Below, piece by piece: positions 9,048 through 58,699 of a DNA stretch of 64,000 bases; the first letter of the stretch is position 1, and the number at the start of each line of letters is the position of its first letter. The stretch comes from Roseovarius sp. ZX-A-9 (GTDB lineage Bacteria; Pseudomonadota; Alphaproteobacteria; Rhodobacterales; Rhodobacteraceae): positions 310,001-374,000 of the forward strand of contig NZ_JAPWHW010000001.1 of assembly GCF_028369135.1 (NCBI RefSeq), written 5' to 3'. Made by a program: the position numbers and the translations under genes. The notes below the pieces were generated by a model that worked only from the letters and a program-made list of their open reading frames with translations, had not been told where the DNA came from and made no database searches.

Positions 9048-9048
9048 T

Positions 9049-9882: not shown

Positions 9883-10922
9883 GACGCGTCCCAATCCATC
9901 ACGACCTTGCCGGAATTGCCCGAGATCATCGCGGCAAAGCCTTCCTCGAAATCATCAATGCCGATCCGGTGCGTAATTAGCCCCGTAACGTCGAGACCGG
10001 ATTGCACCAGCGCGATCATCTTGTACCAGGTCTCGAACATCTCGCGGCCATAGATGCCTTTGACATGCAGCATCTTGAAAATGATCTTGTTCCAATCGAC
10101 CGCGAACTCGGTCGGTGCAATGCCCAGCAAGGCGATCTTGCCGCCGTTGTTCATGCGATTGATCATCTGTTGCATGGCCGCCGCCGCACCGGACATCTCC
10201 AGCCCCACGTCGAAGCCTTCTTGCATGCCGATCCGGCTCATCACGTCCTCAAGCTTCTCGGCCGAGACATCGACCACATGCTGCACGCCCATCTCTCGCG
10301 CCAGGTTCAGGCGGTAGGGGTTGATGTCGGTGATCACCGTCTTGCGCGCACCGACCTTCTGCGCGACCAGCGCGCCCATGATCCCGATTGGCCCCGCGCC
10401 TGTCACCAGCACATCCTCGCCCACCAGATCAAAGCTGAGCGCGGTGTGAACCGCATTGCCGAACGGATCGAATATGGCCGCAATCTCGTCAGGAATATCC
10501 TCAGGGATCGGCACTACGTTGGCCTCGGGGATGCACAGATACTCGGCAAAGCTGCCGGGACGGTTCACCCCGACGCCCTTGGTGTTGCGGCAGAGCTGTC
10601 CGCGCCCCGCGCGGCAATTGCGGCAGGTGCCACAGACAATGTGCCCCTCGCCACTGACCCGCTGTCCGATCTTGTATTTCACCGCCGCCGCGCCGGTATC
10701 GACGATCTCGCCCACAAACTCGTGACCGACGACCATCGGAACCGGCACCACCTTGGCGCTGAACTCGTCCCATTTCCAGATATGCACATCGGTGCCGCAG
10801 ATCGCCGATTTCCTGACCTTGATCAGCACATCGCTTGGCCCCGGTTCGGGCACGGGGACATATTCCATCCACAATCCCGGCTCGGGCTTTGACTTTACCA
10901 GTGCTTTCATTTCGTTTTTCAT
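9879..10922 (-). CDS. tdh: L-threonine 3-dehydrogenase
   Basis: 347-aa zinc-dependent medium-chain dehydrogenase converting L-threonine to 2-amino-3-ketobutyrate with NAD. Visible features: catalytic-zinc motif [10 protein letters not shown] near 41-50, GHEFVGE, structural-zinc cysteines in [15 protein letters not shown] at about 100-114, and the Rossmann motif [11 protein letters not shown] at about 173-183. GGGGGA lies just upstream of the ATG. It is downstream of kbl, with a cysteine-synthase-like gene in between, all linked by ATGA overlaps. The pair feeds threonine into glycine and acetyl-CoA. Confidence 0.93.
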
Positions 10923-41333: not shown

Positions 41334-41999
41334 TCAGAATTCCTCCTCGACGATATGTGCATCCGTGACGCCCAGATCATGCAGCGCATCGCGAACTGCA
41401 TCCATCATTGGCGGCGGGCCGCACAGATAGCAACGGCTGTCAGGTGTCACGAACCGGTTCAGATATTCGCGGTCGGGCCGCTGCTGCGGCACGCTGGCGC
41501 CCGCCTCGTCAACGATGAACGCGGTGGTCAGCCCCTCCATCGCTTCGAACTTGTCACGCCAGATGATGTCGCCTTCGGTCTTGTTGGCGAAAACCAATGT
41601 CGAGCCCGCCAGCGTCCCGTGATCCTTCAAGCGCTTGCGCAGTAGTGCGATCATCGGTGTAACGCCCGCGCCCCCGGCGATGAACACGCCCGACCCTTGA
41701 TCAGAGATCGCGCCGAACGGCCCGTCCATCGTCATCTTGTCGCCGGGTTTCATCGCGGCGATCTGCTCGGTCACACCGTGGTGGGCAGGGTAGGTCTTGA
41801 TGACAAAATCCAGCGTTGGTTCTTCTGGCAGCGTGACGGGGGTAAATGCCCGCCCCTTGTCGCCCCACCCATCCTTGAGCAAGGCCAGCTCCACCCCCTG
41901 ACCCGCAGCAAAATCAAAGCCTTCGGGGCGGTCGAAAACCAGATGATATGTGTCATGCGTGACGCGCTCAATTTGCTTCAACGCCAGTTGATATTTCAT
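41334..41999 (-). CDS. Flavodoxin/ferredoxin-NADP+ reductase-like FAD oxidoreductase
   Basis: 221-aa FNR-fold protein with an N-terminal FAD barrel and C-terminal NAD(P) domain. GGAGVTPMIALLR at about 109-121 is the pyridine-binding motif and CYLCGPPPMMDAVRDAL is at the C-terminus. There is no 2Fe-2S or globin domain, so it resembles a stand-alone reductase module of flavohemoglobin type. Start at 41999 (AGAGG nearby); an ATG at 42056 would lie within the operator. Divergent from an NsrR-like gene with a strong inverted repeat between them, so NO-responsive control is likely. Confidence 0.85.
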   Translation of the reverse strand: MKYQLALKQIERVTHDTYHLVFDRPEGFDFAAGQGVELALLKDGWGDKGRAFTPVTLPEEPTLDFVIKTYPAHHGVTEQIAAMKPGDKMTMDGPFGAISDQGSGVFIAGGAGVTPMIALLRKRLKDHGTLAGSTLVFANKTEGDIIWRDKFEAMEGLTTAFIVDEAGASVPQQRPDREYLNRFVTPDSRCYLCGPPPMMDAVRDALHDLGVTDAHIVEEEF

Positions 42000-42031: not shown

Positions 42032-42062
42032 AGATAATTGGTATTTGCAATGCCAATTATCT
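42032..42062. promoter_or_regulatory. Rrf2/NsrR-type operator between reductase gene and regulator
   Basis: Left half AGATAATTGGTATT (42032-42045), TGC spacer, right half AATGCCAATTATCT (42049-42062), 13 of 14 positions symmetric. The outer arms pair perfectly for 11 bp from 42031 to 42063. Same design as the dyad at 51292-51320 in front of the second Rrf2 gene (shared TAAT-N-GGTATT, 3-nt spacer, AATRCC-N-ATTA). Located 33 bp from the reductase ATG and 44 bp from the regulator ATG. Confidence 0.75.
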
Positions 42063-42105
42063 GGCGGTAAACTAGTTTTCGCCAATCCCAAGTCAAGGAA
42101 CACGC

Positions 42106-42543
42106 ATGCGTCTCGCTTCTTTCACAGATTACGGCCTGCGGGTTTTAATGCGGCTGGCTGGAACGCCCGAGGCCGCCTTTTCCACCGGCCAGATCGCCGA
42201 CGAGTTCGAAATCTCGCGGCATCATCTGGCAAAGGTCGTGCAGGACTTGGGTCGCGGGGGCTTCGTCGGCAGTCAGCGCGGGCGGAATGGCGGGATACGG
42301 CTGGCGCGGCCTGCACATGCCATCACCCTGGGCGAAGTCGTGCGTCATCTCGAAAAGCGCTTCGCGATCGTCGAATGTTTCCGCCCCGATGGCGGCACTT
42401 GCACGCTCAAGCCGCAATGCCGCCTGAAACCCAGACTGGCCGCCGCAAGAGAAGCGTTCATGTCCGAGCTTGATCGAACAACGCTTGCGGACTGCGCGCT
42501 GCCAGATGACGGGCTACACGGGTCGGTGCCTGCTCTCGGATGA
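42106..42543 (+). CDS. Rrf2-family regulator, NsrR-like, iron-sulfur type
   Basis: 145-aa Rrf2 protein. Winged HTH at about 9-62 (FSTGQIADEFEISRHHLAKV). Cys91, Cys99 and Cys105 (VECFRPDGGTC, then QC) match the 2Fe-2S/4Fe-4S ligands of NsrR, which senses nitric oxide by cluster nitrosylation. The spacing is identical in the second Rrf2 protein at 50855-51277. An operator-like dyad lies 44 bp upstream, indicating autoregulation. It is named NsrR-like rather than nsrR because two copies exist. Confidence 0.88.
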   Translation: MRLASFTDYGLRVLMRLAGTPEAAFSTGQIADEFEISRHHLAKVVQDLGRGGFVGSQRGRNGGIRLARPAHAITLGEVVRHLEKRFAIVECFRPDGGTCTLKPQCRLKPRLAAAREAFMSELDRTTLADCALPDDGLHGSVPALG

Positions 42544-42553
42544 GGAACACAGC

Positions 42554-42730
42554 ATGTCAGAAAACTCAGACATTCGGCCCAATCAGGGCATGTATTCTCA
42601 GCCGGGCGGCCCGCATCGGCCCGGGCCCGCAGATCTTATCTTCATTGCGCCGCGCCATGGATCACTGGTATCCGAGGTATTAGTCATGCCGGAATTCGTT
42701 TGGATTGCGTCAAATGCCCATATCGGATGA
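42554..42730 (+). CDS. Possible 58-aa small protein
   Basis: An ATG at 42554 with GAGGA 7 bases upstream opens a 58-codon frame (MSENSDIRPNQGMYSQPGG at its start) that overlaps the next gene by 17 bases. Pro/Gly-rich start, hydrophobic end. No family recognised. The good ribosome site is the main argument; it may equally be non-coding leader. Confidence 0.35.
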   Translation: MSENSDIRPNQGMYSQPGGPHRPGPADLIFIAPRHGSLVSEVLVMPEFVWIASNAHIG

Positions 42731-43124
42731 AAGCCCGGCCCTACGGAGCGGTCGGATTGCACGGCTCGGATGGCTGCTGGTTGGCTTTTCGGCACTGGTC
42801 TGTGGTGCGGTCGGGGTGGTGTTACCATTGCTGCCGACGACGCCTTTTGTCCTGCTCGCAGCTTTCGCCTTCGCCAGATCTTCTCCAACGCTCCGGCGCT
42901 GGCTGGTCGAGCATCGCACCTTTGGTCCGATGATTGCAGACTGGGAATTACACGGTGCGATCGCCCGCCGATACAAGGTGCTGGCCTGCGGCGTCATGCT
43001 TGCATCTCTGATTGGCAGCTTTCTGGCTTCGGTCTCGACATACATCTTTTTCATTCAACTGATCGTGATGGCCGGCGCGGCATCATTCGTGCTGACGCGC
43101 CCGGACGTGGCCAGGGATCCATGA
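42714..43124 (+). CDS. DUF454-family inner-membrane protein (YbaN-like)
   Basis: 136-aa membrane protein with three or four helices. GVVLPLLPTTPFVLLAAFAF at about 36-55 followed by FARSSPTLRRWLVEH is the DUF454 signature. Start ATG 42714 preferred over a TTG at 42705. Downstream of the NsrR-like gene in the same direction. DUF454 proteins often occur near haem, denitrification or cbb3 genes; the function is not established. Confidence 0.87.
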   Translation: MPISDESPALRSGRIARLGWLLVGFSALVCGAVGVVLPLLPTTPFVLLAAFAFARSSPTLRRWLVEHRTFGPMIADWELHGAIARRYKVLACGVMLASLIGSFLASVSTYIFFIQLIVMAGAASFVLTRPDVARDP

Positions 43125-43138
43125 GAGGAGCGTGGTAG

Positions 43139-44155
43139 ATGCCCGCAGAAGAAGTACGCAAAATCCAGACACCGCTATGTTCATTACTTGGCTGCGATGT
43201 TCCGATCCTGCTGGCCGGAATGGGCGGCGTCGCGCATTGGGAACTGGCGGCAGCCGTCGCAGAGGCGGGTGGCTATCCGACATTGGGCATGGTCCGCGAA
43301 AGCCCCGAGCTGATCGCTTCCGAAGTCACGGCATTGCGGGCGGCGACGGATCGCCCCTTTGCGGTCAACCTGATACCCGCCGCGACCGATCCGGCATTGC
43401 TGGATGCACAGATCAGGCAATGCCTGACGCTGGGAGTCACTGCCTTTTCGTTCTTTTGGGATGTGCTGCCGGATGTGATCGGACGGGTCAAGGATGCAGG
43501 GGCGCAGGTATTGCATCAGGTTGGATCAACCGACCAGGCCCGCAAGGCCGAGAATGCCGGGGCCGACGTCATCATCGCGCAAGGGATCGAGGCCGGCGGG
43601 CATGTTCATGGCCGCACCGGATCGTTTGCCTTGGCCGAGGAAATCCTGCAGCAGACCTCGCTGCCTGTTGCTGTGTCGGGCGGCATCTCGACCGGCCGGG
43701 GATTGACGGCTGCCCTGTCCATCGGGGCGCAGGGGGTGCAATGCGGCACGGCCTTCTTGGCCACGGAGGAATCATTTGCGCACCCCTATCACAAGCAGCG
43801 CGTGGTCGAAGCCACCGGTGCCGATACCGTGCTGACAGATATTTTCGTGCTGAATTGGCCCAAGGGCGCGGCTGTGCGCGTGATCGGCAACAGCATCACG
43901 GATGCATTGCAAGGGGAACTGTTGGGGCATGATCCGGACGCGCTGCCACGAGATGCGATTGCCTGGGACGGTGAAGAGGAACGCTATCGCTTCAGCACGG
44001 ATTCGCCGCTGCGGACGACTACCGGCGATCTGGAAGCGATGCCGATCTACGCCGGGCAAGGGGCCGGGCTGATCGGGGATGTTGTCCCGGTCGGTGCCCG
44101 CATCAAAGAGATGGTCAACGATGCCGTTGCTTGCCTTGATGGCAGACAGGCCTAA
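43139..44155 (+). CDS. Nitronate monooxygenase-family FMN enzyme
   Basis: 338-aa TIM-barrel flavoprotein. Motifs IQTPLCSLLGCDVPILLAGM at the N-terminus, QGIEAGGHVHG (catalytic His region), AVSGGISTGRG and GAQGVQCGTAFLATEES (FMN phosphate site) define the NMO/2-nitropropane dioxygenase family. It would oxidise nitronates, or act as an enoyl reductase-type relative. In this NO-linked locus it may deal with nitro by-products. Its stop overlaps the convergent nnrU stop by four bases. Confidence 0.87.
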   Translation: MPAEEVRKIQTPLCSLLGCDVPILLAGMGGVAHWELAAAVAEAGGYPTLGMVRESPELIASEVTALRAATDRPFAVNLIPAATDPALLDAQIRQCLTLGVTAFSFFWDVLPDVIGRVKDAGAQVLHQVGSTDQARKAENAGADVIIAQGIEAGGHVHGRTGSFALAEEILQQTSLPVAVSGGISTGRGLTAALSIGAQGVQCGTAFLATEESFAHPYHKQRVVEATGADTVLTDIFVLNWPKGAAVRVIGNSITDALQGELLGHDPDALPRDAIAWDGEEERYRFSTDSPLRTTTGDLEAMPIYAGQGAGLIGDVVPVGARIKEMVNDAVACLDGRQA

Positions 44156-44820
44156 AGAAAGACCGGCAGACCGATCACGATCGGATGCAGGACGACCAGC
44201 AGGATATAGACGCCCCCGCCAATGCAGGCGCGGATGATGAAGCCCCGCGAGGGAAGGCTTAGTCTGCGCCCCTTTCGGGTCTTCGCCCAAAGCTGCGCCC
44301 AGTTTTCTGGCCCCAGAACACGCTTCTTGCGCTTGTCGACGATACGGTGCCCCATGATGGCGAAGAACGCCAATGTGCCGAACAGCAGCACATGCGCCAG
44401 ATCACCGTTCATGACCATATGCAGGATCGCCCATAGCGCCATAGCGCTGAGGAGGGGGTGGCGCAGGTACGCAACCACACCCGGCGCGGAAGGGTCGAAA
44501 GCGTCATTGTTCGACCCGCCGAATGAGAACGGGTTCGGCCGACCGATAGCGACCGCGAAGATCACGCAGGCAGCAAACATGCCCAGCCAGATGACGGGCC
44601 GGTGCCACGGCGCCTCTGCCCAGAGCGAAACAAACGGCGCGCGCTGTGTTGCCCAGATCAGCAAGGCCAGCATCACAAGAGAGAGCAGGGCATAGGCCAG
44701 CGTAAATCCACGCGGCCCCAGATGTGCCACAAGGCGGCGTTTTACCGGCGGGCGCACGGGCACCGAATGGGTGACAAAGAACAGGGCAAAGACACAAGCG
44801 AATGCCAGCCATGACGTCAT
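44152..44820 (-). CDS. nnrU: NnrU-family membrane protein
   Basis: 222-aa membrane protein with about six helices. FALFFVTHSVPVRPPVKRRL and the conserved YLRHPLLSAMALWAILHMV segment are typical of NnrU/isoprenylcysteine methyltransferase-like proteins linked to nitrite and NO respiration. The start at 44820 overlaps the nnrS stop by ATGA; the longer upstream frame lies over nnrS and is rejected. Last gene of the ccoN-nnrU operon. Confidence 0.88.
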   Translation of the reverse strand: MTSWLAFACVFALFFVTHSVPVRPPVKRRLVAHLGPRGFTLAYALLSLVMLALLIWATQRAPFVSLWAEAPWHRPVIWLGMFAACVIFAVAIGRPNPFSFGGSNNDAFDPSAPGVVAYLRHPLLSAMALWAILHMVMNGDLAHVLLFGTLAFFAIMGHRIVDKRKKRVLGPENWAQLWAKTRKGRRLSLPSRGFIIRACIGGGVYILLVVLHPIVIGLPVFL

Positions 44821-46034
44821 TGGCGTACCGGCTTCGGCTGCATCAGCGCCGGCCCGTAGAAGACTGCGAAGCCGACAAAGGCTCCAATCCACAGAGCGCC
44901 CGACAGGGCATAGAGCGTGGCTGCCTGCCCCTCCCAGATCGCGGGGGCCAACCGGGCAAGGACCGATGCAACCAGACAGACATAAATCGCCAGGCTGCCT
45001 GCGCCCGCGTGCAAGGTTTGGCCGGTATGCCCCAAAGTGGCGCGGGTCATCATCGCCAAGGTCATAAGCCCGAATGCCCCAGCCATCCAAAGGTGCTGCG
45101 CAGAGGCCGCAGGCAACAGATCGGGCCGCAGGATCGCCGCCCCCTCGACCAGCGCACCGAGCGGGATGAACGCATAGGCGAGGTGCAGAACCCAAAGGAG
45201 CGGTTCTGACAATGTCTGCCCTCCCTGCCAACGGAAAAGGCGGCCAAGATGCAGCAGCCCGATCACCAGAAGCGCCGCACCCGTCAACGCGTGCTCGGGC
45301 CTTGCGATCCAGAGCAAAAGGGCAAACACCGTCGCCAGAATTACAACCTTGTCAAAGCGTTGCATTGGCGGGACCGGCAGTTGCTCGGATTTCCTGCTGA
45401 CCAGCCAATTGCGGGTAAACGACGGCACAACACGCCCACCGATGACAGCAATCAACAGGATCACGGCCGCGACGCCGATCCGCAGACCGACCCCTTGGGC
45501 GGCCAGATCTCCCCGCGCGGCTTCAATGTGAAACAGCAGGTTCGCCAGGGTGAAAACCGTCAGCAGTACCAGCACCACAAGGTTGCGCCAGTTTTTGCCC
45601 GCGATGATCTCGCGCAGGATGAAAGCGCCGAGAGCGACCAGGAAGGACAGATCGACCGCTTCTGCCACACCGACCGGCCACAGTTCGGAGGTTGCCACGG
45701 CAGCGCGCCCGCCAACCCATAGCCCGAACAACCCCGCCAGGTGCCAGCCGACGACCGGCAGGCGACCCGTCCAGTTCGGAACGGCAGTCAGCAGGAACCC
45801 CCCGATGATCGCCCCCAGATAGCCGAACAGGAACTCGTGAGCGTGCCATGAGACGGGATCGAGGCGCGTCGGCAACATGAAGCGCCCCGACAGCATCAGG
45901 ATCCACACCAGCATTGCCAGCGCCGCCCAAACGGCCCCGAACAGGAAGAACGGGCGGAAGCCAAAGGAAAAGATCGCCGGTCCTTTCCATGCGCGGCTTT
46001 GCTCGGAAGTCGTTTTTTTCATGATCGGTGCCAT
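44817..46034 (-). CDS. nnrS: NnrS-family haem-copper membrane protein
   Basis: 405-aa membrane protein with about twelve helices. FSFGFRPFFLFGAVWAALAM and WHAHEFLFGYLGAIIGGFLL near the N-terminus carry conserved His residues of NnrS, which relieves nitrosative stress. ATG 46034 is my choice; an ATG at 46022 is also possible and neither has a strong ribosome site. Directly linked to nnrU. NnrS is usually under NO control in alphaproteobacteria, consistent with the Rrf2 gene at the operon head. Confidence 0.9.
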   Translation of the reverse strand: MAPIMKKTTSEQSRAWKGPAIFSFGFRPFFLFGAVWAALAMLVWILMLSGRFMLPTRLDPVSWHAHEFLFGYLGAIIGGFLLTAVPNWTGRLPVVGWHLAGLFGLWVGGRAAVATSELWPVGVAEAVDLSFLVALGAFILREIIAGKNWRNLVVLVLLTVFTLANLLFHIEAARGDLAAQGVGLRIGVAAVILLIAVIGGRVVPSFTRNWLVSRKSEQLPVPPMQRFDKVVILATVFALLLWIARPEHALTGAALLVIGLLHLGRLFRWQGGQTLSEPLLWVLHLAYAFIPLGALVEGAAILRPDLLPAASAQHLWMAGAFGLMTLAMMTRATLGHTGQTLHAGAGSLAIYVCLVASVLARLAPAIWEGQAATLYALSGALWIGAFVGFAVFYGPALMQPKPVRQ

Positions 46035-46085
46035 TCTGTATCGCGGGGTCTCACAACATCTGCAATCGAGCAAAGCCCGGCTGCG

Positions 46086-46319
46086 TTATTCCGTATCGCG
46101 CCAATATCCATTGGCGGCAGCGACGGTTGCGAAATGGGTGGCAACCACTTGGCTTGACGCGATCAGCGCGTCAAAGTCATTGGCGTAGTCGGGGCGCAAT
46201 TTCTTGCGGATCTCCGCGTCGGGTTGCGTCATGCCAACCGCGACACGGGCAAGCTTGACGGCCAACTCATAGCCTTCTTCAGGTGTGTTTGTCTGCAGTG
46301 TTGGAAGCCAGTCTTTCAT
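46086..46319 (-). CDS. Small conserved-looking protein of unknown function in the cbb3/NO operon
   Basis: 77-aa soluble protein, mixed helix, containing YELAVKLARVAVGMTQPDA and FDALIASSQVVATHFATVAA. I do not recognise the family. Its start (AAAGGGCG upstream) lies inside ccoS, giving a 41-base overlap in another frame, which is long for this genome. The gene is followed by nnrS after 51 bp. Possibly a cofactor or assembly protein; no evidence for a specific function. Confidence 0.7.
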   Translation of the reverse strand: MKDWLPTLQTNTPEEGYELAVKLARVAVGMTQPDAEIRKKLRPDYANDFDALIASSQVVATHFATVAAANGYWRDTE

Positions 46320-46479
46320 GGGTTCGCCCTTTCATTGCGGGAGGTTTGTCATTCAGCAGAACACGCGACGCATTGCCTTTGGGATCGTCGAACTGGTCGT
46401 GGCGCAACGCCCAGATGAACGCCGCAAGGCCCAGCAGGCCCATGCCGATGGAAAGAGGGATGAGAACCACCAAGCTCAT
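46279..46479 (-). CDS. ccoS: cbb3-type oxidase assembly protein CcoS
   Basis: 66-aa protein. One N-terminal helix (LVVLIPLSIGMGLLGLAAFI) followed by the CcoS motif WALRHDQFDDPKGNASRVLL. CcoS is needed for haem/copper insertion into CcoN. ATG 46479 overlaps the preceding stop by ATGA. The C-terminal tail is longer than the core family and overlaps the next small gene by 41 bases. The usual partners ccoG, ccoH and ccoI are not here. Confidence 0.85.
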   Translation of the reverse strand: MSLVVLIPLSIGMGLLGLAAFIWALRHDQFDDPKGNASRVLLNDKPPAMKGRTHERLASNTADKHT

Positions 46480-47273
46480 TCTGCGTCCCCCCGAAGGGCC
46501 TTGTACGCGTGCCATGTGCCGTGGCCGAGCACCGGAAACACGATGGCCAGTCCAACAAGGCCAGTCGCGACACTCAACGCGATGCCCCCGGCGACGATAC
46601 CGCCCCAGACCAGTGCCACCGGCAGGTTCTGCATCGTCATGGCAAAGCTGATCCCCATCGCGGTCAGCGCGTCACGCCGCTCTGCCAGCATCATCGGGAT
46701 CGAGAAGAGGCTGAGCGCGAATGCGAAACCTGCGAAAAGCGCGCCAACCGCGCAACCGACCAGGATCAAGGCCCAGCCCCGCGCGGTTGTCAGCACGTTG
46801 ACAAACGCATCTTCTGCGCCCGGAAACGGGGTATGCCCGAAAAACAGCGCATACAGCAGATCAGCCGCCCGCAGCCAGAACAGCACCAACAGGCCGAGCA
46901 GCAACCCGGCATAGGCGAACTGCCCCAGCGAGGCGGGGCGCACCAACAACATGCGATGCAGCGAGACAGGCTCGCCCTGCTCCAATGCGCGGCTCTTCTC
47001 GTAGAGGCCCAACGCCAGAAAAGGACCCACGATCAGGAAACCCGCAATCGCAGGCAACGCAAGATAGAGCAGCCCGGCCTCTGCCAGAGCCCAAAGCGCG
47101 CCATAGGAAACGAGGACCAGAAAGACACCGTAGACCAGGCTTGGCCCCGGATTGGTGCGCAGGTCTTTCCAACCGGCGGCGAGCCATCCGAATGCCGCCC
47201 GCGCCGGCAATCCACGGGCAAAGGCAGGTGCCGGCTTTTCGGGTTTGCGGAGCGTTGGCAGGGGTTCGAGCAT
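46476..47273 (-). CDS. DUF2189-family membrane protein
   Basis: 265-aa membrane protein with about six helices. WLAAGWKDLRTNPGPSLVYG at about 30-49 is characteristic of DUF2189 proteins, which are frequently found beside cbb3 oxidase and cytochrome genes in alphaproteobacteria. The function is unknown. Overlaps ccoS by ATGA. Hydrophobic segments near 48-68, 72-92, 118-140, 165-190 and 220-245. Confidence 0.85.
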   Translation of the reverse strand: MLEPLPTLRKPEKPAPAFARGLPARAAFGWLAAGWKDLRTNPGPSLVYGVFLVLVSYGALWALAEAGLLYLALPAIAGFLIVGPFLALGLYEKSRALEQGEPVSLHRMLLVRPASLGQFAYAGLLLGLLVLFWLRAADLLYALFFGHTPFPGAEDAFVNVLTTARGWALILVGCAVGALFAGFAFALSLFSIPMMLAERRDALTAMGISFAMTMQNLPVALVWGGIVAGGIALSVATGLVGLAIVFPVLGHGTWHAYKALRGDAE

Positions 47274-47283
47274 TTGAAACCTT

Positions 47284-47442
47284 TCAGCAGGCGGGCTTGG
47301 CGGCTGCGGCTGAGGCCACCAGCGTGCAATCAGGCTGCGACAGTACGGCGACGGTGATCAGATGCGCATTCGCGACGATGAACCCGCCGACAAGGACGAC
47401 GGCCACTAAAATCGCCAATCTGCGCTGCGCGAGCCGGCTCAT
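47284..47442 (-). CDS. 52-aa single-helix membrane protein
   Basis: One hydrophobic segment (about 9-33, LAILVAVVLVGGFIVANAHL) followed by a short tail with Cys38 and C-terminal Cys52. The ATG overlaps the ccoP stop by ATGA, indicating translational coupling. Such a small protein could be a subunit or an assembly factor of the oxidase. No family recognised. It would be missed by gene finders that use a long minimum length. Confidence 0.65.
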   Translation of the reverse strand: MSRLAQRRLAILVAVVLVGGFIVANAHLITVAVLSQPDCTLVASAAAAKPAC

Positions 47443-48320
47443 TTTCCCTCCTCCGCCGCGTTGCGGGACAATTCGGAAACATAGAGCGCCAGCAGGTTGA
47501 TCTCGGCTTCGGTAAGCCGGGTGCCCCAGGCAGGCATGACGCCCTGCCGTCCATGGCGCAGCGTCTGCAGGATCGTGGCGCGGTCCTGTCCGTAAATCAC
47601 CGAAGCATCGGTCAGTGATGGTGCGCCGTTCATCATCCCGCCGATGCCGCCGTCCCCATGGCAAGAGCTGCAATTGTCGGCAAATATCATGGCCCCGGCT
47701 GCGGTTTCATCCGCCTGACCGCCCGGCAGCGCCGCCACGTAGTCGGCAACCGCGAAGCGTTCGCTGCGTTCCATCCAGTCAAAGGCAGGCATTTGCGCCC
47801 ACCGGGTATCATCATTGCCCGCGTTGATCCCGAATTGAAGCGTCTCGGCTATCGTCTCGGGGTCGCCGCCCCAGAACCAGTAATTGTCATTAAGTGCCGG
47901 AAAGCCGGGACCACCTGCACCGTCACTGCCGTGACAGGCCGCGCAGTTGTCCTGAAACAACCGCTCCGCCGCAGGCATGGCACGCGCCATCAGCGCGTCG
48001 TCACTCTGTAGTGATGCGAAATCCTCTGCCCCGAACCGCGCCAGCCACTCATCACGCTTGGCATCCATCGCGCGGAAATCCTCGACCGCCATCTCGCCCT
48101 GGTTCAACCCCAGAAGGCCGGGCACATAGGTGCGGCCCACCGGCCATGACGGCAGAAGCACCCATGCAATGACGGAATAGACAAAGGTGAGGATCAGCGC
48201 CCAGATAACGATCTTGGGAAACGGTGTATTGAGTTCGCGAATACCGTTCCAGTCATGGCCCGTCGTATCATAGCCAGTGATCGGATCGACCTCTGTGTGG
48301 TCGGAATGGGGATCGCTCAT
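47439..48320 (-). CDS. ccoP: cbb3-type cytochrome c oxidase subunit III (dihaem)
   Basis: 293-aa membrane-anchored dihaem cytochrome c. One helix at about 37-58, then CAACH at 126-130 and CSSCH at 217-221. It delivers electrons from soluble cytochrome c to CcoO/CcoN. The start overlaps the ccoQ stop by ATGA. Confidence 0.94.
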   Translation of the reverse strand: MSDPHSDHTEVDPITGYDTTGHDWNGIRELNTPFPKIVIWALILTFVYSVIAWVLLPSWPVGRTYVPGLLGLNQGEMAVEDFRAMDAKRDEWLARFGAEDFASLQSDDALMARAMPAAERLFQDNCAACHGSDGAGGPGFPALNDNYWFWGGDPETIAETLQFGINAGNDDTRWAQMPAFDWMERSERFAVADYVAALPGGQADETAAGAMIFADNCSSCHGDGGIGGMMNGAPSLTDASVIYGQDRATILQTLRHGRQGVMPAWGTRLTEAEINLLALYVSELSRNAAEEGK

Positions 48321-48484
48321 TTCGGATCCTCCGGCGCCTGCTCCTTCAGGATGGACCGGGCGGCCCTCTCATGGGCGGCGCGTCTCTTGGGGCTATATGC
48401 GCGGATGACGACGATCAGGAAGAATCCCATCATCCAGATCGGCCCAAATGTCTTGGCGAGAAAGGCGAGTGTTTCGTAGGTCAT
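48317..48484 (-). CDS. ccoQ: cbb3-type oxidase subunit IV
   Basis: 55-aa small subunit with one helix (about 15-30, IWMMGFFLIVVIRAYSPKRR) and a polar tail. Position between ccoO and ccoP with ATGA overlaps at both ends is diagnostic of ccoQ/fixQ. It stabilises CcoP association with the core. Confidence 0.9.
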   Translation of the reverse strand: MTYETLAFLAKTFGPIWMMGFFLIVVIRAYSPKRRAAHERAARSILKEQAPEDPK

Positions 48485-49209
48485 TCTGTTTCCCCCGCAA
48501 GCAGATCATAGGCCGCATCGGTCAGCGCGCCGAGAGATTGCAGATAGGCCACCACTGCATCCATCTCGGTCAACTGCGACGGGTCGCCATCAAAGGCGCG
48601 CACGGCAATGCCGTCACCGTAGCGGTCGCGCACCGCGTCACCGGCATCCGAGTCAGGCTGGCTCTGACCGCGCGCATCGGCCACCGCCGCCGCCACCATT
48701 TCCGGATCGTAAGGCACGCCCAGACGGGCCAGTGTCGCAAGCTCATCCGACAAAAGCCGGGTATCGAGCGGCCGCATGAGCCAGGGATAGGCCGGCATGA
48801 TCGACGCGGGCACAACGCTGCGCGGATCGATCAGGTGCGCAACATGCCAGTCGTCGGAATACTTCCCGCCCAGCCGGGCGATATCCGGGCCTGTCCGTTT
48901 CGAGCCCCAAAGCATCGGATGGTCATAGGCACTCTCGGCGGCCAGGGAATACGGGCCGTAGCGGTCCAGCTCATCGGCCAGGCTGCGGATCATCTGACTG
49001 TGGCAGGCGTAACAGCCTTCGCGAATGTAGATTTCACGCCCAGCCAGCTCCAGCGGCGTATGAGGGCGCATGTCATCCGGCATCTCGATAGTTTCGTCGA
49101 TCACGAACAATGGTGCGATCTCGACGATCCCGCCAATGGAGGCAGCAACGATGATCCCTGCCACCAGACCCATCGAAAGTTTTTCGAGGTTATAATGCAG
49201 CTTCAGCAT
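48481..49209 (-). CDS. ccoO: cbb3-type cytochrome c oxidase subunit II (monohaem)
   Basis: 242-aa membrane-anchored monohaem cytochrome c. N-terminal helix at about 12-36, haem motif CYACH at 66-70 followed by SQMIRSLADE, and a methionine ligand region PASIMPAYPWL. Typical length and motif of CcoO. Overlaps ccoQ by ATGA and follows ccoN by three bases. Confidence 0.94.
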   Translation of the reverse strand: MLKLHYNLEKLSMGLVAGIIVAASIGGIVEIAPLFVIDETIEMPDDMRPHTPLELAGREIYIREGCYACHSQMIRSLADELDRYGPYSLAAESAYDHPMLWGSKRTGPDIARLGGKYSDDWHVAHLIDPRSVVPASIMPAYPWLMRPLDTRLLSDELATLARLGVPYDPEMVAAAVADARGQSQPDSDAGDAVRDRYGDGIAVRAFDGDPSQLTEMDAVVAYLQSLGALTDAAYDLLAGETE

Positions 49210-49212
49210 GAT

Positions 49213-50850
49213 TTACTCCGCCGGTTGCGGATTGAGAGGTCGGTCGCTGGCCTCGTGGAGTGGCGGCGTCGAGCGGAAGGTTGCCCGGCAATTGAGCGTG
49301 CAGATGATCGCACCGGAAAGGAACATCGCGCCGCCGATGGTGCGCAGCAGGTAATAAGGCGCCATCGCCTGCACCGATTCCACAAAGCTGTAGGACAGCG
49401 CACCATTCTCGTCATAGGCCCGCCACATCAGGCCCTGCGTGATGCCGGCGTTCCACAATGCGACGACGTAGATCAGCGTGCCACCCACAGCGAGCCAGAA
49501 GTGCCACTCGATCGCGCGCGGCCATGCCATCTCCTTGCAGCCCGAGATTTGCGGAACCAGCGTGTAGATCGCGCCAAAGATGATCATCGCGACCCACCCA
49601 AGCGTTCCGGAATGCACATGCCCGACGGTCCAGTCGGTATAGTGGCTGAGCGAATTGACCGGCCTGATGGCGAGGAACGATCCCTCGAATGTCGACAGCC
49701 CGTAGAACACCGCCGCGACAAACATGAACCGTAGCGTCGCATCATCGCGGACCTTGTGCCAGGCGCCGTTCAGGGTCGCGATCGCATTACCGGCAGAGGC
49801 CCAGGACGGCACCAGAAGCATCACCGAAAACGTCATGCCAAGCGTCTGAACCCAATAGGGCAAGGCGGTGTAATGCAGGTGGTGCGAGCCGACCCAGATG
49901 TAGAAGAAAACGATGCCCCAGAAGCTGACAATCGACAGCCGGTAAGACCAGATGGGGCGCCCTGACCGGACCGGCAGGAAATAGTAGAGCATCCCCAGAA
50001 AGCCCGCCGTCAGGAAAAACGCCACCGCATTGTGCCCATACCACCACTGGATCATGGCGTCCTGCACACCCGCCCAGATGGTAAAGCTCTTGGCCGCCCC
50101 AAAGCTGACCGGCAGCGCCAGGTTGTTGACGATATGTAGCATCGCCACGACCAGGATAAACGCCATGTAATACCAGTTGGCCACGTAGATATGCGGCTCG
50201 TGCCGGCGCGCCAACGTGCGGATATAAAGCGTGAAATAGACCAACCAGACCACGACCAGCCACAGATCGGCATACCATTCCGCTTCGGCATATTCCTTGG
50301 ATTGGGTGCTGCCCATCACGTAGCCGGTCACCGCCCATGCGCAGAACAGGTTGAAGCCGATGAGTATGAACCAGGGGCTTATCGAATCCGCCAGCCGCGT
50401 GCGGGACGTGCGTTGCAACACATATAACGACGTCGCGATCAGCGCGTTGCCGCCAAAGCCGAATATCACGCCGGTCGTGTGCACCGGGCGCAATCGGCCA
50501 AAGCTGGTCCATGGCACAGCGGGCGTCGCTTCGGGCCAGTACAGCAGCGCGGCGACCCAGACACCGACACCCATGCCGATGATGGCCCAGATCAACGTCA
50601 TCCAGATCCCGAAACGGGTCGGTGCATCGTAATACTGGTTGGCGCGATCCGGCGACGGTTCGGGCTCGTAGAATGCGCCGCCGATGCGAAAGACCAGGTA
50701 CAGCCCCAACACCAGCGCCATCGCGCCATGGACAGCCATGACACCGTGCCGTGCCGCTGCCGCCATGATGAAACCAAGCAGCGCCAGCGCAAAAGCCAGG
50801 CCAAAACCGATCTGGCGTTCAGAACGACTGAGTGTTGCTGCTGCGGTCAT
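49213..50850 (-). CDS. ccoN: cbb3-type cytochrome c oxidase catalytic subunit I
   Basis: 545-aa twelve-helix haem-copper oxidase subunit. QWWYGHNAVAFFLTAGFLG (catalytic Tyr/CuB His helix), VGSHHLHYTALPYWVQ (CuB His pair) and LSHYTDWTVGHVHSGTLGW (haem b/b3 ligands) are clear. These distinguish it from NorB. The oxidase reduces O2 at low concentrations, and family members have NO reductase side activity. Four bases separate it from the upstream Rrf2 stop. Confidence 0.95.
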   Translation of the reverse strand: MTAAATLSRSERQIGFGLAFALALLGFIMAAAARHGVMAVHGAMALVLGLYLVFRIGGAFYEPEPSPDRANQYYDAPTRFGIWMTLIWAIIGMGVGVWVAALLYWPEATPAVPWTSFGRLRPVHTTGVIFGFGGNALIATSLYVLQRTSRTRLADSISPWFILIGFNLFCAWAVTGYVMGSTQSKEYAEAEWYADLWLVVVWLVYFTLYIRTLARRHEPHIYVANWYYMAFILVVAMLHIVNNLALPVSFGAAKSFTIWAGVQDAMIQWWYGHNAVAFFLTAGFLGMLYYFLPVRSGRPIWSYRLSIVSFWGIVFFYIWVGSHHLHYTALPYWVQTLGMTFSVMLLVPSWASAGNAIATLNGAWHKVRDDATLRFMFVAAVFYGLSTFEGSFLAIRPVNSLSHYTDWTVGHVHSGTLGWVAMIIFGAIYTLVPQISGCKEMAWPRAIEWHFWLAVGGTLIYVVALWNAGITQGLMWRAYDENGALSYSFVESVQAMAPYYLLRTIGGAMFLSGAIICTLNCRATFRSTPPLHEASDRPLNPQPAE

Positions 50851-50854
50851 TCGG

Positions 50855-51277
50855 TCAATCCTTCAGGTCTGCAAGCGGCCTCAGGGCAATATCCGCGAGG
50901 GTCGCGTCATCAAGATCGGCCAGAAACGCGGCTTCGGCCGATTTCAACCTTGCCTTCAGCCTGCACTGGCCATCGATCACACATTCCCCACCATCAGGGC
51001 GGAGGCATTCCACGAGTTGCTGACCGTCTTCCAGCAAGCGCACGATCTGCCCAATGCGAATGTCGCTTGCCGGGCGCGCCAGACTCGCCCCGCCACCGCT
51101 GCCGCGGCGGGTCGCGACGATGTTGCCTGCGGCCAGGCGCTGCATGATCTTGGACAGGTGGTTGCGCGAAAGACCGAACTCTTCCGCCAACTCTGCGGTT
51201 GAAAACGCGCGTTCCGGCGCGCTGGCCATCCGCATGAGCATCCGAAGCCCGTAGTCTGTAAAGGTGGTGAGCCGCAT
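50855..51277 (-). CDS. Second Rrf2-family, NsrR-like regulator
   Basis: 140-aa Rrf2 protein with HTH FSTAELAEEFGLSRNHLSKI and Cys91, Cys99, Cys105 in the same spacing as the protein at 42106-42543. The two share the start MRL-x-x-FTDYGLR and most of the HTH. It heads the ccoN-nnrU operon, so it likely represses or activates the oxidase genes in response to NO or iron-sulfur status. A dyad lies 15-43 bases upstream of the ATG. Confidence 0.9.
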   Translation of the reverse strand: MRLTTFTDYGLRMLMRMASAPERAFSTAELAEEFGLSRNHLSKIMQRLAAGNIVATRRGSGGGASLARPASDIRIGQIVRLLEDGQQLVECLRPDGGECVIDGQCRLKARLKSAEAAFLADLDDATLADIALRPLADLKD

Positions 51278-51291
51278 CTATGTCTTTTTCC

Positions 51292-51320
51292 GCTAATAGG
51301 TATTTTTAATACCTATTAGC
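51292..51320. promoter_or_regulatory. Rrf2/NsrR-type operator upstream of the cbb3-NO operon
   Basis: Perfect 13-bp dyad GCTAATAGGTATT (51292-51304), TTT spacer, AATACCTATTAGC (51308-51320). On the minus strand a possible -35 TTGCAT (51335-51340) and -10 TAATAG (51313-51318, 16-nt spacer) place the -10 box inside the dyad, so binding would block RNA polymerase. Same core as the dyad at 42032-42062. Confidence 0.78.
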
Positions 51321-51600
51321 AAATCTGCACAGAAATGCAAGCCTAAACCAGAGGGAAAGTAGCGCCGCTGCCACCTCGGTAAGGACTGGAGTCGTGCGCC
51401 TTGCGGCCATGACTTCATAGCATGAATACGCGCGAGTCGCTATCAATCCGCAGGGGTGGCAGACTGGTTGATGAAACAATCCAGACCAAGCCATTGTACT
51501 GGGTAGCGAGGGCGCCGATGTTGCTGGCCTCTTCACCGGGCGCCGGCCCCCAGCGGTCCGCGACAGCCAGCCGCCTGCCTGACGTGGGCTGACGCAGGGG

Positions 51601-55649: not shown

Positions 55650-56698
55650 GCGGACACTCCTTTCAGGGGTTTGAGACGGGTATCAAGCGTGGCGGCCGTT
55701 GCCTGCCAGCCCGGCATGCGGGTATCGAGCAACGCCGAAATGTCAGTGAGCGCCGCGTCGACCAGCGCAGTCTGGAACTGGCGCAGCACTCGCGGCAGCC
55801 AATCGAGGTAACCCGGTTTGCCGTCGCGCAGGCAGAGCCGGACAAAAACGCCGAGGATGCGCGCATGGCGCTGCGCGGCCAGAAGGTGATAGCGGCGGCG
55901 GATCGCCTGCGCGCCGCCCAGATGCGCCGGCGCATTCTCCAGGTAGCGGGCCAACAGCGATGCCTCCAGCCCCGGCGACAGGTCGCGGCGCGCATCCTGC
56001 AACAGCGACATCAGATCGTATTCGCACGGCCCCAGCACACCATCCTGGAAATCCAGCAGACCACAGCGGGCCACGCCTTCGCGTCCGTCCAGCAACATCA
56101 GGTTATCGACATGGAAATCACGCATGATCAACGTGTCATAGTGCCCGTCGACCGGGGCCAGCGCGGCCTCCCACAGCGCGCGCCACTCTTGGGCGAACGC
56201 GGTGCGGTCCAGATCCGGCGCGACGGCGGGGGCGAACCATTCGGCAAAGACCTCCAGCTCGTCCAGCATCTTGCGCAGGTCATAGCGGGGCTGATCCACC
56301 TGTACGCCGCGCGGGTCGTGATGCAGATGCAAGAGGACATCCACCGCCAGTCGATACAGCGCGCCCTCATCCTCGCCCGCAGAGAGGCAGCGGGAATAGG
56401 TCGTGTCACCAAGATCCTCGATTAGCGCCACGCCTGCGGGCTTCGTCGCAGCGACAACGCGCGGCGCCGAAAGCCCCAGATCAGCCAGATGCGCCGACAG
56501 CCGCAGATAGGCATCGAACCCCACCGGATCGGTAGGGTCCTCCATCAGGATCAGCCCCTGCCCTTCCAGCCGGAAATACCGGCGTGGCGAGGCATCCGCG
56601 ACAAAGGCCGTCAGGCGGGCGCCCTCGTGACCCCGTGATGCCAAGAGCGCGGCAGAAGCAGGCAGGATTTGCCCATGTGTCGGCGCGGTTCCGGTCAT
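55646..56698 (-). CDS. Aminoglycoside-phosphotransferase-family kinase (AmgK-like)
   Basis: 350-aa APH-fold kinase. Catalytic loop MRDFHVDNLMLL at about 203-214 (HxDxxxxN variant) and Mg-binding LLDFQDGVLGPCEYDL at about 224-239. RRYFRLEG near 40 fits the nucleotide-binding strand. The fold covers choline kinase, aminoglycoside kinase and the anomeric sugar kinase AmgK, which works with a nucleotidyltransferase to make UDP-MurNAc/GlcNAc. The nucleotidyltransferase two genes downstream favours an AmgK-like sugar-1-kinase, but choline or amine kinase is possible. Overlaps both neighbours by ATGA. Confidence 0.82.
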   Translation of the reverse strand: MTGTAPTHGQILPASAALLASRGHEGARLTAFVADASPRRYFRLEGQGLILMEDPTDPVGFDAYLRLSAHLADLGLSAPRVVAATKPAGVALIEDLGDTTYSRCLSAGEDEGALYRLAVDVLLHLHHDPRGVQVDQPRYDLRKMLDELEVFAEWFAPAVAPDLDRTAFAQEWRALWEAALAPVDGHYDTLIMRDFHVDNLMLLDGREGVARCGLLDFQDGVLGPCEYDLMSLLQDARRDLSPGLEASLLARYLENAPAHLGGAQAIRRRYHLLAAQRHARILGVFVRLCLRDGKPGYLDWLPRVLRQFQTALVDAALTDISALLDTRMPGWQATAATLDTRLKPLKGVSA

Positions 56699-57048
56699 CG
56701 GATCATGTAGACCTTCTTGATGGTCTCGTGAACGGTGCAGACGCCTTTCCAGTCCTTGGGAAAGAACGCGGCGGTGTCGGGGGTGATCTCGATCACGTCG
56801 CCGGACTCGTGCACATAGGTGCAGCGGCCTTCAAGGAAATGGCAGAATTCGTCGCTGGTGACGTGGCAGTCCCACTTACCGGGGGTACAGATCCAGAGGC
56901 CGCATTCGCTTTGCCCGTCCGGACCCTTGTGCAGCACCTTGCCCGAGACGTGGCTTTCGCCCTCGATCATCGTCGGGATGATGCCCCAGTCATCGGTTTC
57001 GGTGACCTCGAGCGGTTTGTGCATTACGGGAGTTTTCAACTGTTTCAT
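56695..57048 (-). CDS. Cupin-domain protein (tandem copy 2)
   Basis: 117-aa single cupin. TSDEFCHFLEGRCTYVHESG and PDTAAFFPKDWKGVCTVHE show both cupin motifs. Clear paralog of the adjacent protein at 57054-57416 (shared MIEG-SH, LLHKGPD-like, TPG-W and DEFCHF segments). AGAAGG is immediately before ATG 57048; other starts within the frame have no better site. Function not known; may bind the amine or sugar ligand. Confidence 0.82.
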   Translation of the reverse strand: MKQLKTPVMHKPLEVTETDDWGIIPTMIEGESHVSGKVLHKGPDGQSECGLWICTPGKWDCHVTSDEFCHFLEGRCTYVHESGDVIEITPDTAAFFPKDWKGVCTVHETIKKVYMIR

Positions 57049-57053
57049 CCTTC

Positions 57054-57416
57054 TTAAACAAGCATGTAGATGTTGCGCAGGGTTTCGGTGATCTCGGCCG
57101 TGCCTTTCCAGCCCGCTGGAAACAGGACGCAGGTGCCGGGACCGGCCTCGATCACCTCTTGACCGTCGTCGCGGCGATAGCTGACGCGGCCGGCGACGAA
57201 ATGGCAGAATTCGTCGCGCGGCACCGAGATTTTCCAGGTGCCGGGGGTGCAGACCCAGATGCCGGTTTCCGGAGAATTGTCCGGCCCCTTGTGCAAAAGA
57301 CGCCCGGTGGAATGGGACTGCCCCTCGATCATGTCGGGCTGCGGGCCCCAATCGACCAGATCATCATATGTCGTCGCATTGTGGATATGCGGCGCGGAAG
57401 AAGCGAGATTGGTCAT
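57054..57416 (-). CDS. Cupin-domain protein (tandem copy 1)
   Basis: 120-aa single cupin. DMIEGQSHSTGRLLHKGPD, VPRDEFCHFVAGRVSYRRDD and CVLFPAGWKGTAEITE define the domain. The DUF861-type cupins include ethanolamine-utilization EutQ-like and (R)-specific hydrolase-like proteins. The start overlaps the glycosyltransferase stop by ATGA, and the stop is 5 bp from the second copy. Confidence 0.82.
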   Translation of the reverse strand: MTNLASSAPHIHNATTYDDLVDWGPQPDMIEGQSHSTGRLLHKGPDNSPETGIWVCTPGTWKISVPRDEFCHFVAGRVSYRRDDGQEVIEAGPGTCVLFPAGWKGTAEITETLRNIYMLV

Positions 57417-58699
57417 TTCTGCGCCTCGGCAAGGTTGACCAGCAGCTTCGCGGCCTTTTCCTGCCCGTTCTGGGACTGCATGTGGGCCGATGTCTTTTTC
57501 AGGCGTGCCGCGATGTCGCTATCGGTGAGGCAGGCCTCGATCTTTGCGATCAGTTCCTCGTCGGTCCAGTCGTAACGGTCCGAGCGGAAGCCGTGACCGG
57601 TTTCCTGCACGCGCATCGCGTTGTCATGCCCGTCCCAGACATAGGGCATGATGATCGCCGGCTTGCCGAAATAGAGGCACTCGGTAAACGAGTTGTTGCC
57701 GCCGTGATGGATCACGGCATCGACCTGTGGAATGACCGAAGGCTGCGGGAACCAGCTGCCGATGATCACATTGTCGGGCAGGTCGGAATATTCCGACTCG
57801 TAATCGCCCACATTGACCAGCGCCCGGTAGCGGGTGTTGCAGATCAGCTTGATCAGGCGTTTCAGCAGGTCGGTATCGCCTGCCCCGAGCGAGCCGAAAG
57901 AGACATAGAGCAGCGGGCCGTCGTTGTTTTTCTTGAAGGTCGGCACCTCATAATCTTTGTCCTGACGCACACAGCCTTCGAGATACTGGAACTGCTTGGG
58001 ATCAAGCGGCAACTTGCGCTCGTATTTCACCTGCTCGGGGTAAAGCAGCAGGTTCAGATAGGGCGATGCCTCGAAGAATTCGCCCAGCTTGTACGGGTCT
58101 TCGCCGCATTCCTTCAGGAATTCGTTGAAATCGTCGTGGATCGGCTTGATCACTTCGCTGAACTTCTTGCGGAAGGCGGCGTGGCCTTCGGTGTCGTTGA
58201 CCGACATGCCCGACAGGTGCGGCGGGATCGATTCATCCTCGATCTCGTTTTCCGAGCAAGAGATGATCCGCACCCACGGCACGCCATATTGCTTGATCGC
58301 CGGGAACAGGATCACGTTATCCACCGAGATGACGTCGGGCTTGATCTTGGCCAGCACCTGCGGCAGATCCTTTTGCGCCCATTTCGCGCTGTCCACGATC
58401 GCCTCCCAGCATTCCTTGACGTAGTTGTCGATTTGGTCGATCGGCGCCTTGCGGAAATTCGGGATGTGGGAGTTGATGAAATCCTCCCAGAACTTGGCCA
58501 TCTGCTCGGGCGGCATCGGCTCAGACAGGGCGACGGGATGCGCCTCGAAGCCATAGCCTTCGTAAACCTCGACAAAACCGGGATCCGACAGGAACACGGC
58601 CTTGTGCCCCATGCGCTCTACCGCCTGGGCGATACCAACAGAGTTGAGTGCGGGGCCAAAGGCGGCCTCGGGGAAGAAGGCAAAGGTTTTCTGGGTCAT
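57413..58699 (-). CDS. GT1-family (UDP-glycosyltransferase/MGT-like) glycosyltransferase
   Basis: 428-aa GT-B fold protein. The C-terminal nucleotide-sugar-binding signature is clear: GSWFPQPSVIPQVDAVIHHG, then GNNSFTECLYFGKPAIIMP and WDGHDNAMRVQETGHG (about 315-370). N-terminal acceptor domain begins FAFFPEAAFGPALNSVGIAQ. Such enzymes transfer a sugar from UDP/TDP to small acceptors (macrolides, phenols, amines). It is highly unusual in a polyamine operon. A related gene begins at 63742 with the same N-terminal pattern. Located between potA and the cupins. Confidence 0.87.
   Translation of the reverse strand: MTQKTFAFFPEAAFGPALNSVGIAQAVERMGHKAVFLSDPGFVEVYEGYGFEAHPVALSEPMPPEQMAKFWEDFINSHIPNFRKAPIDQIDNYVKECWEAIVDSAKWAQKDLPQVLAKIKPDVISVDNVILFPAIKQYGVPWVRIISCSENEIEDESIPPHLSGMSVNDTEGHAAFRKKFSEVIKPIHDDFNEFLKECGEDPYKLGEFFEASPYLNLLLYPEQVKYERKLPLDPKQFQYLEGCVRQDKDYEVPTFKKNNDGPLLYVSFGSLGAGDTDLLKRLIKLICNTRYRALVNVGDYESEYSDLPDNVIIGSWFPQPSVIPQVDAVIHHGGNNSFTECLYFGKPAIIMPYVWDGHDNAMRVQETGHGFRSDRYDWTDEELIAKIEACLTDSDIAARLKKTSAHMQSQNGQEKAAKLLVNLAEAQK

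Follow-up and report, generated by a model that had tools for sequence, protein, structure and literature searches.

Two genes for Rrf2-family regulators, here termed nsrR-A and nsrR-B, lie in a 64,000-nucleotide (64-kb) stretch of the Roseovarius sp. ZX-A-9 genome (contig NZ_JAPWHW010000001.1, positions 310,001 to 374,000; hereafter the window, with coordinates counted from its first letter), and each is accompanied by a long inverted repeat of nearly the same design. A first-pass annotation had described the repeats at 42032-42062 and 51292-51320 as an operator shared by two regulators responsive to nitric oxide (NO), and on reading both do match the pattern it described. The first, operator A, is a 31-bp dyad, AGATAATTGGTATT-TGC-AATGCCAATTATCT, in which one arm pair is mismatched (T/G), and the second, operator B, is a 29-bp dyad, GCTAATAGGTATT-TTT-AATACCTATTAGC, with perfect arms. 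We read them as operators of NsrR-type repressors belonging to one regulon of about five sites, an explanation to which, taken as a whole, we give a probability of about 0.86. The features that bear on this reading are:

42032..42062, operator A (23-bp core 42036-42058), between a divergent FAD/NAD oxidoreductase gene and nsrR-A
42071..42093, possible remnant of a second operator, 35 bp from operator A centre to centre, score -5.9
42106..42543, plus strand, nsrR-A, Rrf2-family NsrR-type regulator, 145 aa
50855..51277, minus strand, nsrR-B, Rrf2-family NsrR-type regulator, 140 aa
51292..51320, operator B, perfect-arm inverted repeat over the -10 of nsrR-B
51313..51340, minus strand, probable nsrR-B promoter (-35 TTGCAT 51340-51335, 16 nt, -10 TAATAG 51318-51313)

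Candidate operator sites in the genome and its relatives

Within the window, the full pattern TAATNGGYATTNNNAATRCCNATTA at up to three mismatches is matched by operators A and B only, and 100 dinucleotide shuffles of the window yield no match; on a scoring matrix built from 80 sites of the B type, operator A reaches 31.4, against 3.4 for the best of 300 random 180-bp sequences. In the draft genome (4,687,609 bases, 62 contigs, 99.9% complete) there are five exact matches to the 23-bp pattern AATNGGYATTNNNAATRCCNATT, none at one or two mismatches, and three at three mismatches (one of the latter standing 35 bp from a perfect site). Base composition would predict 2.5e-5 exact sites per genome, and the reversed control pattern does not occur in it. 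A chance repeat is rejected on these counts, and the random scatter through the genome that had been named beforehand as speaking against the motif is not seen. The inner core, GGYATTNNNAATRCC, occurs exactly at seven genomic places, two of which, on contigs 9 and 22, are without the outer arms and were excluded from the site count. Both operons thought to share the motif do carry it, but the set is wider, with five sites rather than two.

Site 3, on contig 55, has dnrN/ytfE (YtfE model 258 bits, cut-off 254) and then an aa3-type ctaD on one side, and DUF6522, an AhpD/CMD-family gene and a truncated globin on the other; the globin has no NCBIfam or Pfam match at E 0.001, and among solved structures a group III truncated haemoglobin (2ig3, E 1e-13) comes closest to it. 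Site 4, on contig 62, lies upstream of a RACo/AcsV-like corrinoid activator whose profile match begins at position 114 of 632, so that the N-terminal part is absent; the gene occupies 8853-10595 of locus L156 and the perfect operator 10723-10745, and the site is kept in a genome of the same genus, G110 (locus L234). Site 5, on contig 33, stands 238 nt upstream of an H-NS-like gene, the least certain target. This perfect operator (L157 7209-7231) sits in a gap of about 560 nt, across which lies a gene that we take to be L,D-transpeptidase-like, and it may possibly serve an unannotated small gene.

The pattern recurs in front of related regulators. A total of 349 NsrR-B relatives were confirmed in named genomes, and the best 80 (68-84% identity to nsrR-B; two pairs each from one assembly, plus some near-copies) were kept. 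In all 80 the best motif match lies 12-31 nt before the start codon, where mismatches were counted over 18 fixed positions and the best match within 250 nt upstream was taken, which favours finding something. There were no mismatches in 46, one in 18, two in nine, three in five, four in one and six in one; the motif is thus present with at most two mismatches in 73 of 80 and in a weaker form in seven. The remaining 1.17 Mb of the same loci hold two exact sites and two with one mismatch, and the fixed position together with this low background argues against a chance origin of the upstream matches. Four extra sites (up to two mismatches) adjoin DUF454, the interval between DUF454 and DUF6522, globin-NnrS, and ctaD. 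Genes within 8 kb in these loci encode globin (56), hexameric tyrosine-coordinated haem protein (HTHP; 43), DnrN (41), CcoN (39) and NnrS (28), counts that are lower bounds where contigs end.

Across the family, 39 of 100 genomes were searched, 19 with a close NsrR (at least 53% identity) and 20 with weak matches only, middling relatives being excluded. Of the 19, 17 have sites at up to two mismatches, against 3 of the 20 (Fisher p about 3e-6); at up to one mismatch the counts are 13 and none, respectively, and the reversed pattern is present in one of the 39. The proposed consensus for NsrR-type Rrf2 regulators of this lineage is therefore supported, both by the 73 relatives and by co-occurrence with close NsrR proteins. 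The close-NsrR genomes hold 28 sites, 19 of which adjoin nsrR. Eight of the other nine stand (i) beside globin-DnrN, (ii) between an oxidoreductase and CMD-globin-CcoN, (iii) between globin and DUF6522, (iv) beside a nitronate monooxygenase (NMO) gene at 257 nt, (v) beside NnrS, (vi) between CtaD and DUF6522, (vii) between DUF6522 and globin-NMO-CcoN and (viii) beside HTHP at 415 nt; the ninth could be assigned to no target.

Within the genus, a site at no more than one mismatch is present in 9 of 30 genomes drawn, our own among them, and G110 was chosen for having the most sites apart from our own. Its five sites belong to nsrR-B-cco...nnrS-nnrU, to the interval between the oxidoreductase and DUF454-NMO, to that between an nsrR-A-like gene and dnrN-ctaD, to the corrinoid activator and to a third nsrR, and four of the five recur on targets of our genome. 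At the second of them no nsrR lies between the flanking genes, DUF454 starting 183 nt behind the operator. The oxidoreductase operator likewise stands without an adjacent nsrR in a further genome, G087, and must therefore be served in trans in both. The orthologues concerned are 78% (G087) and 81% (G110) identical, the G110 gene having itself been found through its operator. The oxidoreductase appears to be a target confined to the close lineage.

The two regulators and competing explanations

A and B are 56% identical, and the Rrf2 domain (PF02082) spans the whole of each protein (121 and 117 bits, respectively, cut-off 30). They fall in one clade (100/99), within which B is monophyletic (99/98, in a smaller tree with the window's A sequence); a monophyletic A group, at a p-AU of 0.29, is neither demanded nor rejected. 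A is an older set of open branching, and the pair is therefore not a recent tandem copy. The best solved relative of both is Streptomyces coelicolor NsrR, in which His42, Lys45 and Arg60 lie at the bases (PMC9338935; this and the other papers cited are drawn on in part). The equivalent residues, His40, Lys43 and Arg58, are identical in A and B, and the place of Thr41 is taken by His39 in A and Asn39 in B. Candidate cluster ligands in B are D8, C91, C99 and C105, aligned and invariant in A. Asp8 is the non-cysteine cluster ligand of the S. coelicolor protein (5N07/7B0C; PMC9338935), which has three cysteines as well, although its cysteine loop is C-X5-C and that of A and B, C-X7-C, is two residues longer. 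Asp8 is found in 121 of 124 rows labelled A or B, a label given by best query only, some of these rows falling outside the A+B clade.

As the paralogues share an operator code and most base-reading residues, each would probably bind sites of the other's set, and the cross-regulation suggested at first pass is likely, a reasonable inference from operators standing away from any nsrR. Alternatively, the paralogues could be insulated, each acting on its own operators, with the likeness of the sites reflecting common descent only. Such insulation would suit two separate old lineages whose recognition helices differ at one position (His39 versus Asn39), and in relatives the sites are tandem at A-type and single at B-type promoters. 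We nevertheless consider it unlikely, because the cores look interchangeable, His40, Lys43 and Arg58 are the same in both proteins, and G110 and G087 keep sites without a neighbouring nsrR.

All five A-clade relatives examined carry tandem operators whose centres lie 34-35 bp apart (the weaker member scoring 5.7 to 27.5), and our own dnrN promoter and the G087 oxidoreductase promoter each carry two operators at 35 bp; in another NsrR-like group, of 4 loci and outside the clade, the distance is 37 bp. Among the 80 B promoters, no second site scores higher than -2.8. Operator A of the window is a single strong site, and the sequence 35 bp away, at -5.9, is marginally above the random 95% point of -7.7, so that 42071..42093 may be a decayed second operator, the relic of a tandem pair. 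The G110 oxidoreductase promoter is similar, with -6.7 at 35 bp. The third NsrR-type gene of G110, on a separate contig, is preceded by two operators 35 bp apart (L231 3998-4055).

Another explanation would cast the regulators as RirA-type iron sensors and the operator as a variant iron-responsive box. RirA belongs to the Rrf2 family and its model (NF008886) is the second-best specific NCBIfam match of both proteins, at 97 bits for A and 89 for B, but the NsrR model is the best, at 123 and 117, that is, 26-28 bits higher. IscR (TIGR02010), at 37 and 48 bits, is not the best model for either. The cysteine spacing, C-X7-C-X5-C, is identical in A and B as first noted, but does not argue for NO sensing as had been thought, since a separate RirA-type protein of the same genome has it too. 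That protein (RirA 123 versus NsrR 98 bits) carries Asn at the aligned Asp8 place, as judged by the profile start. Besides A and B, the genome's clear Rrf2 genes are the one for this protein and an IscR-type gene, so typed by best profile and both below cut-offs; neither has such an operator upstream, and a fifth Rrf2 match is partial and below cut-off. Asp8 and gene context, the neighbours and trans sites being NO-response genes, are better evidence for NO sensing than the cysteine spacing. Iron sensing is rejected on the profile scores, Asp8, the separate RirA-type protein and the neighbours, and strikes us as improbable.

The claimed overlap of the dyad at 51292 with a -10 element is borne out, TTGCAT and TAATAG standing 16 nt apart on the minus strand. 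In 58 of the 80 relatives a TTG lies exactly 16 nt upstream of the motif's TAATNG hexamer, against 0-8 at 15 other spacings tested, and because this spacing is kept, a conserved promoter has its -10 under the operator. A simple sigma-70 scan calls no promoter at operator B; at operator A it yields one weak promoter-like match, TTGGCG-18-GATAAT, on the oxidoreductase strand (1 versus a shuffle mean of 0.2). The natural reading at operator B would be repression by occlusion of the -10. RNA hairpins (attenuator or terminator) in place of protein-binding DNA, which long near-perfect dyads just before start codons might bring to mind, are rejected as hardly credible, since much of the B dyad should stay untranscribed given its overlap with the -10, no terminator-like site was found at A or B, and the arms are kept as sequence. 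In the sites of the 80 relatives the arms are invariant rather than covarying, which fits protein recognition of DNA, and their complementarity is about that expected of independent columns, slightly higher at the outermost positions.

Several observations weigh against operators of an NsrR-type regulon as we propose it. Neither protein reaches the NsrR cut-off (NF008240, 182 bits), and A and B are classed as NsrR-type rather than certified NsrR for that reason. Sites at up to two mismatches are missing from two NsrR genomes (G065 and G074), and one or two such sites are present in each of three genomes that lack a close NsrR. Oxidoreductase relatives were matched in 117 of 149 genomes, and among the 28 loci fetched from these, all at no more than 68% identity, no site with up to three mismatches was found. 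The H-NS site, at its distance of 238 nt and absent from the five sites of G110, may be inert. As for a source of NO, the genome gives one match to copper nitrite reductase, at 49 bits against a cut-off of 296, and none to cytochrome d1 (cd1 nitrite reductase).

A possible respiratory switch

The remaining genes at the two loci are:

41334..41999, minus strand, stand-alone FAD/NAD(P) oxidoreductase, oriented away from nsrR-A, with the operator core 36 nt upstream
42705..43124, plus strand, DUF454 membrane protein, following nsrR-A (PRK10527 at 74 bits, below cut-off)
43139..44155, plus strand, NMO/FabK-type flavoprotein (FabK model, below cut-off)
44152..44859, minus strand, nnrU
44817..46028, minus strand, nnrS
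46086..46319, minus strand, HTHP
46279..46515, minus strand, ccoS/fixS maturation protein
46476..47273, minus strand, DUF2189 membrane protein
47439..48320, minus strand, ccoP2 (profile match)
48481..49209, minus strand, ccoO2 (profile match)
49213..50850, minus strand, ccoN2, second cbb3 oxidase subunit I, 4 nt after nsrR-B (TIGR00780 588 bits, cut-off 583)

The genes of the run nsrR-B-ccoN-ccoO-ccoP-DUF2189-ccoS-HTHP-nnrS-nnrU share the minus strand, are separated by -43 to 165 nt and would form one operon. Without NO, a dimer of the NsrR-type repressor with its iron-sulphur cluster would occupy GGYATT-N3-AATRCC, both across the -10 of the nsrR-B-ccoNOP2-DUF2189-ccoS-HTHP-nnrS-nnrU run and within the divergent oxidoreductase/nsrR-A promoter region; NO would damage the cluster, the repressor would leave, and both regulators, NO defence, iron-sulphur repair and spare terminal oxidases would then be made.

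The haem-copper oxidase subunit I (COX1) family has four matches in the genome, two ctaD (76% identical) and two ccoN (52%), and one of each lies in the regulon. The loci of the other two show no operator match with fewer than six mismatches, and the other ccoN (ccoN1) carries TTGATGCAGATCAA upstream, presumably an FNR-like box. No fifth COX1-family gene was seen as a candidate for norB, which we assume would match this family, and flavohaemoglobin (Hmp) gives six partial genomic matches, the best at 63 bits against a cut-off of 432. The second aa3-type ctaD (L158 7406-9070) comes after dnrN, downstream of the operator, and no further oxidase subunit was noticed next to it; in relatives the operator stands between nsrR-A and ctaD (L188) or before ctaD (L147).

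The NO-controlled oxidases may, as a hypothesis, sustain respiration under NO. An alternative oxidase (AOX) of Vibrio fischeri is reportedly under NsrR control, in work attributed to Dunn (2010). Judging by the title, this would be an NsrR-controlled, NO-upregulated spare oxidase as proposed here, AOX there versus cbb3 and aa3 subunit I here. NO is also said, in a title, to be a potent inhibitor of cbb3 oxidases, which counts against NO-tolerant respiration if valid for this cbb3.

A broader proposal, which we hold tentatively and at somewhat less than even odds, is that two old NsrR paralogues with one operator code form an NO-triggered respiratory switch. It would turn on the spare cbb3 set (with nsrR-B) and the aa3 subunit I (with dnrN), the ordinary ccoN1 having an FNR-like box instead. 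The NO response would gain HTHP, DUF6522 and the truncated corrinoid activator as new members, the oxidoreductase and truncated globin could amount to a split flavohaemoglobin, and tandem versus single operators would set different NO thresholds.

The flavohaemoglobin model, in its reductase part, also picks up the oxidoreductase at 41334-41999 (40 bits, below cut-off), and in G087 oxidoreductase, CMD and truncated globin share one operator region; with the truncated globin (L158 10725-11186) the oxidoreductase possibly makes up a split NO dioxygenase. HTHP (46086-46319), encoded in the run that follows nsrR-B and found close to nsrR in 43 of the 80 relatives, is a candidate NO-response protein. 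Only peroxidase-type activity is known of it, and the HTHP literature, among the matches listed, consists mainly of sensor and materials papers, with NO in no title.

Known NsrR systems and further observations

The motif appears to be a lineage variant of the known NsrR operator, not a new kind of element. The published consensus, gATGyAT-N5-ATrCATc (Rodionov et al. 2005, PMC1274295), agrees with it at positions -6 to -3 (G, y, A, T) and differs at -7 (T there, G here), and AAT/ATT arms are added here at 9-11, with conservation reaching -11/+11; Neisseria has its own substitution in the motif (PMC1274295). The NsrR regulon of beta- and gammaproteobacteria and Gram-positives likewise joins an Rrf2 regulator and a palindromic operator to dnrN, nnrS and NO-detoxifying globin targets, with hmp there, and Bacillus subtilis hmp has predicted tandem sites like the tandem operators here (PMC1274295). 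That reconstruction, in the parts drawn on, places NsrR among alphaproteobacteria only in Rhodobacter capsulatus E1F1; in contrast to it, the present set has two regulators, includes cbb3 and aa3 oxidase genes, HTHP and DUF6522, and lacks an Hmp above cut-off. The S. coelicolor regulon comprises three genes (PMC9338935).

Among alphaproteobacteria, Magnetospirillum gryphiswaldense also has two NsrR-subfamily proteins, 54% similar, and deletion of its nsrR2 gave no obvious phenotype (PMC12774639); a search of the text of that paper for consensus, palindrome or operator found none of these terms. Its introduction, citing other work, has NsrR controlling NO genes in Paracoccus denitrificans, and in Sphingopyxis granuli an NO donor induces nsrR and ytfE (PMC6472365). 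No description of this operator was found in the literature searched, RegPrecise, most subscription journals and the P. denitrificans NsrR work cited in PMC12774639 lying outside its scope. What is new is the presence of tandem operators at the five A relatives versus single ones at the B type and, judging from gene and site positions, the apparent operator control of a second copy of the cbb3 oxidase and of aa3 subunit I. The result is (i) a specific, searchable candidate operator for NsrR-type regulators in Rhodobacterales-type alphaproteobacteria and (ii) a link between probable NO control and four members of the set, the second cbb3 oxidase, aa3 subunit I, HTHP and DUF6522, by which questions of NO-tolerant respiration become open to direct test.

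The NMO at 43139..44155 has a putative nitroalkane dioxygenase as its best solved relative, and its relatives occur near nsrR or operators. Outside the regulon, the window also holds, at 56695-58699, a glycosyltransferase-like gene followed by two small cupin-like genes, labels that come from reading the open reading frames only.

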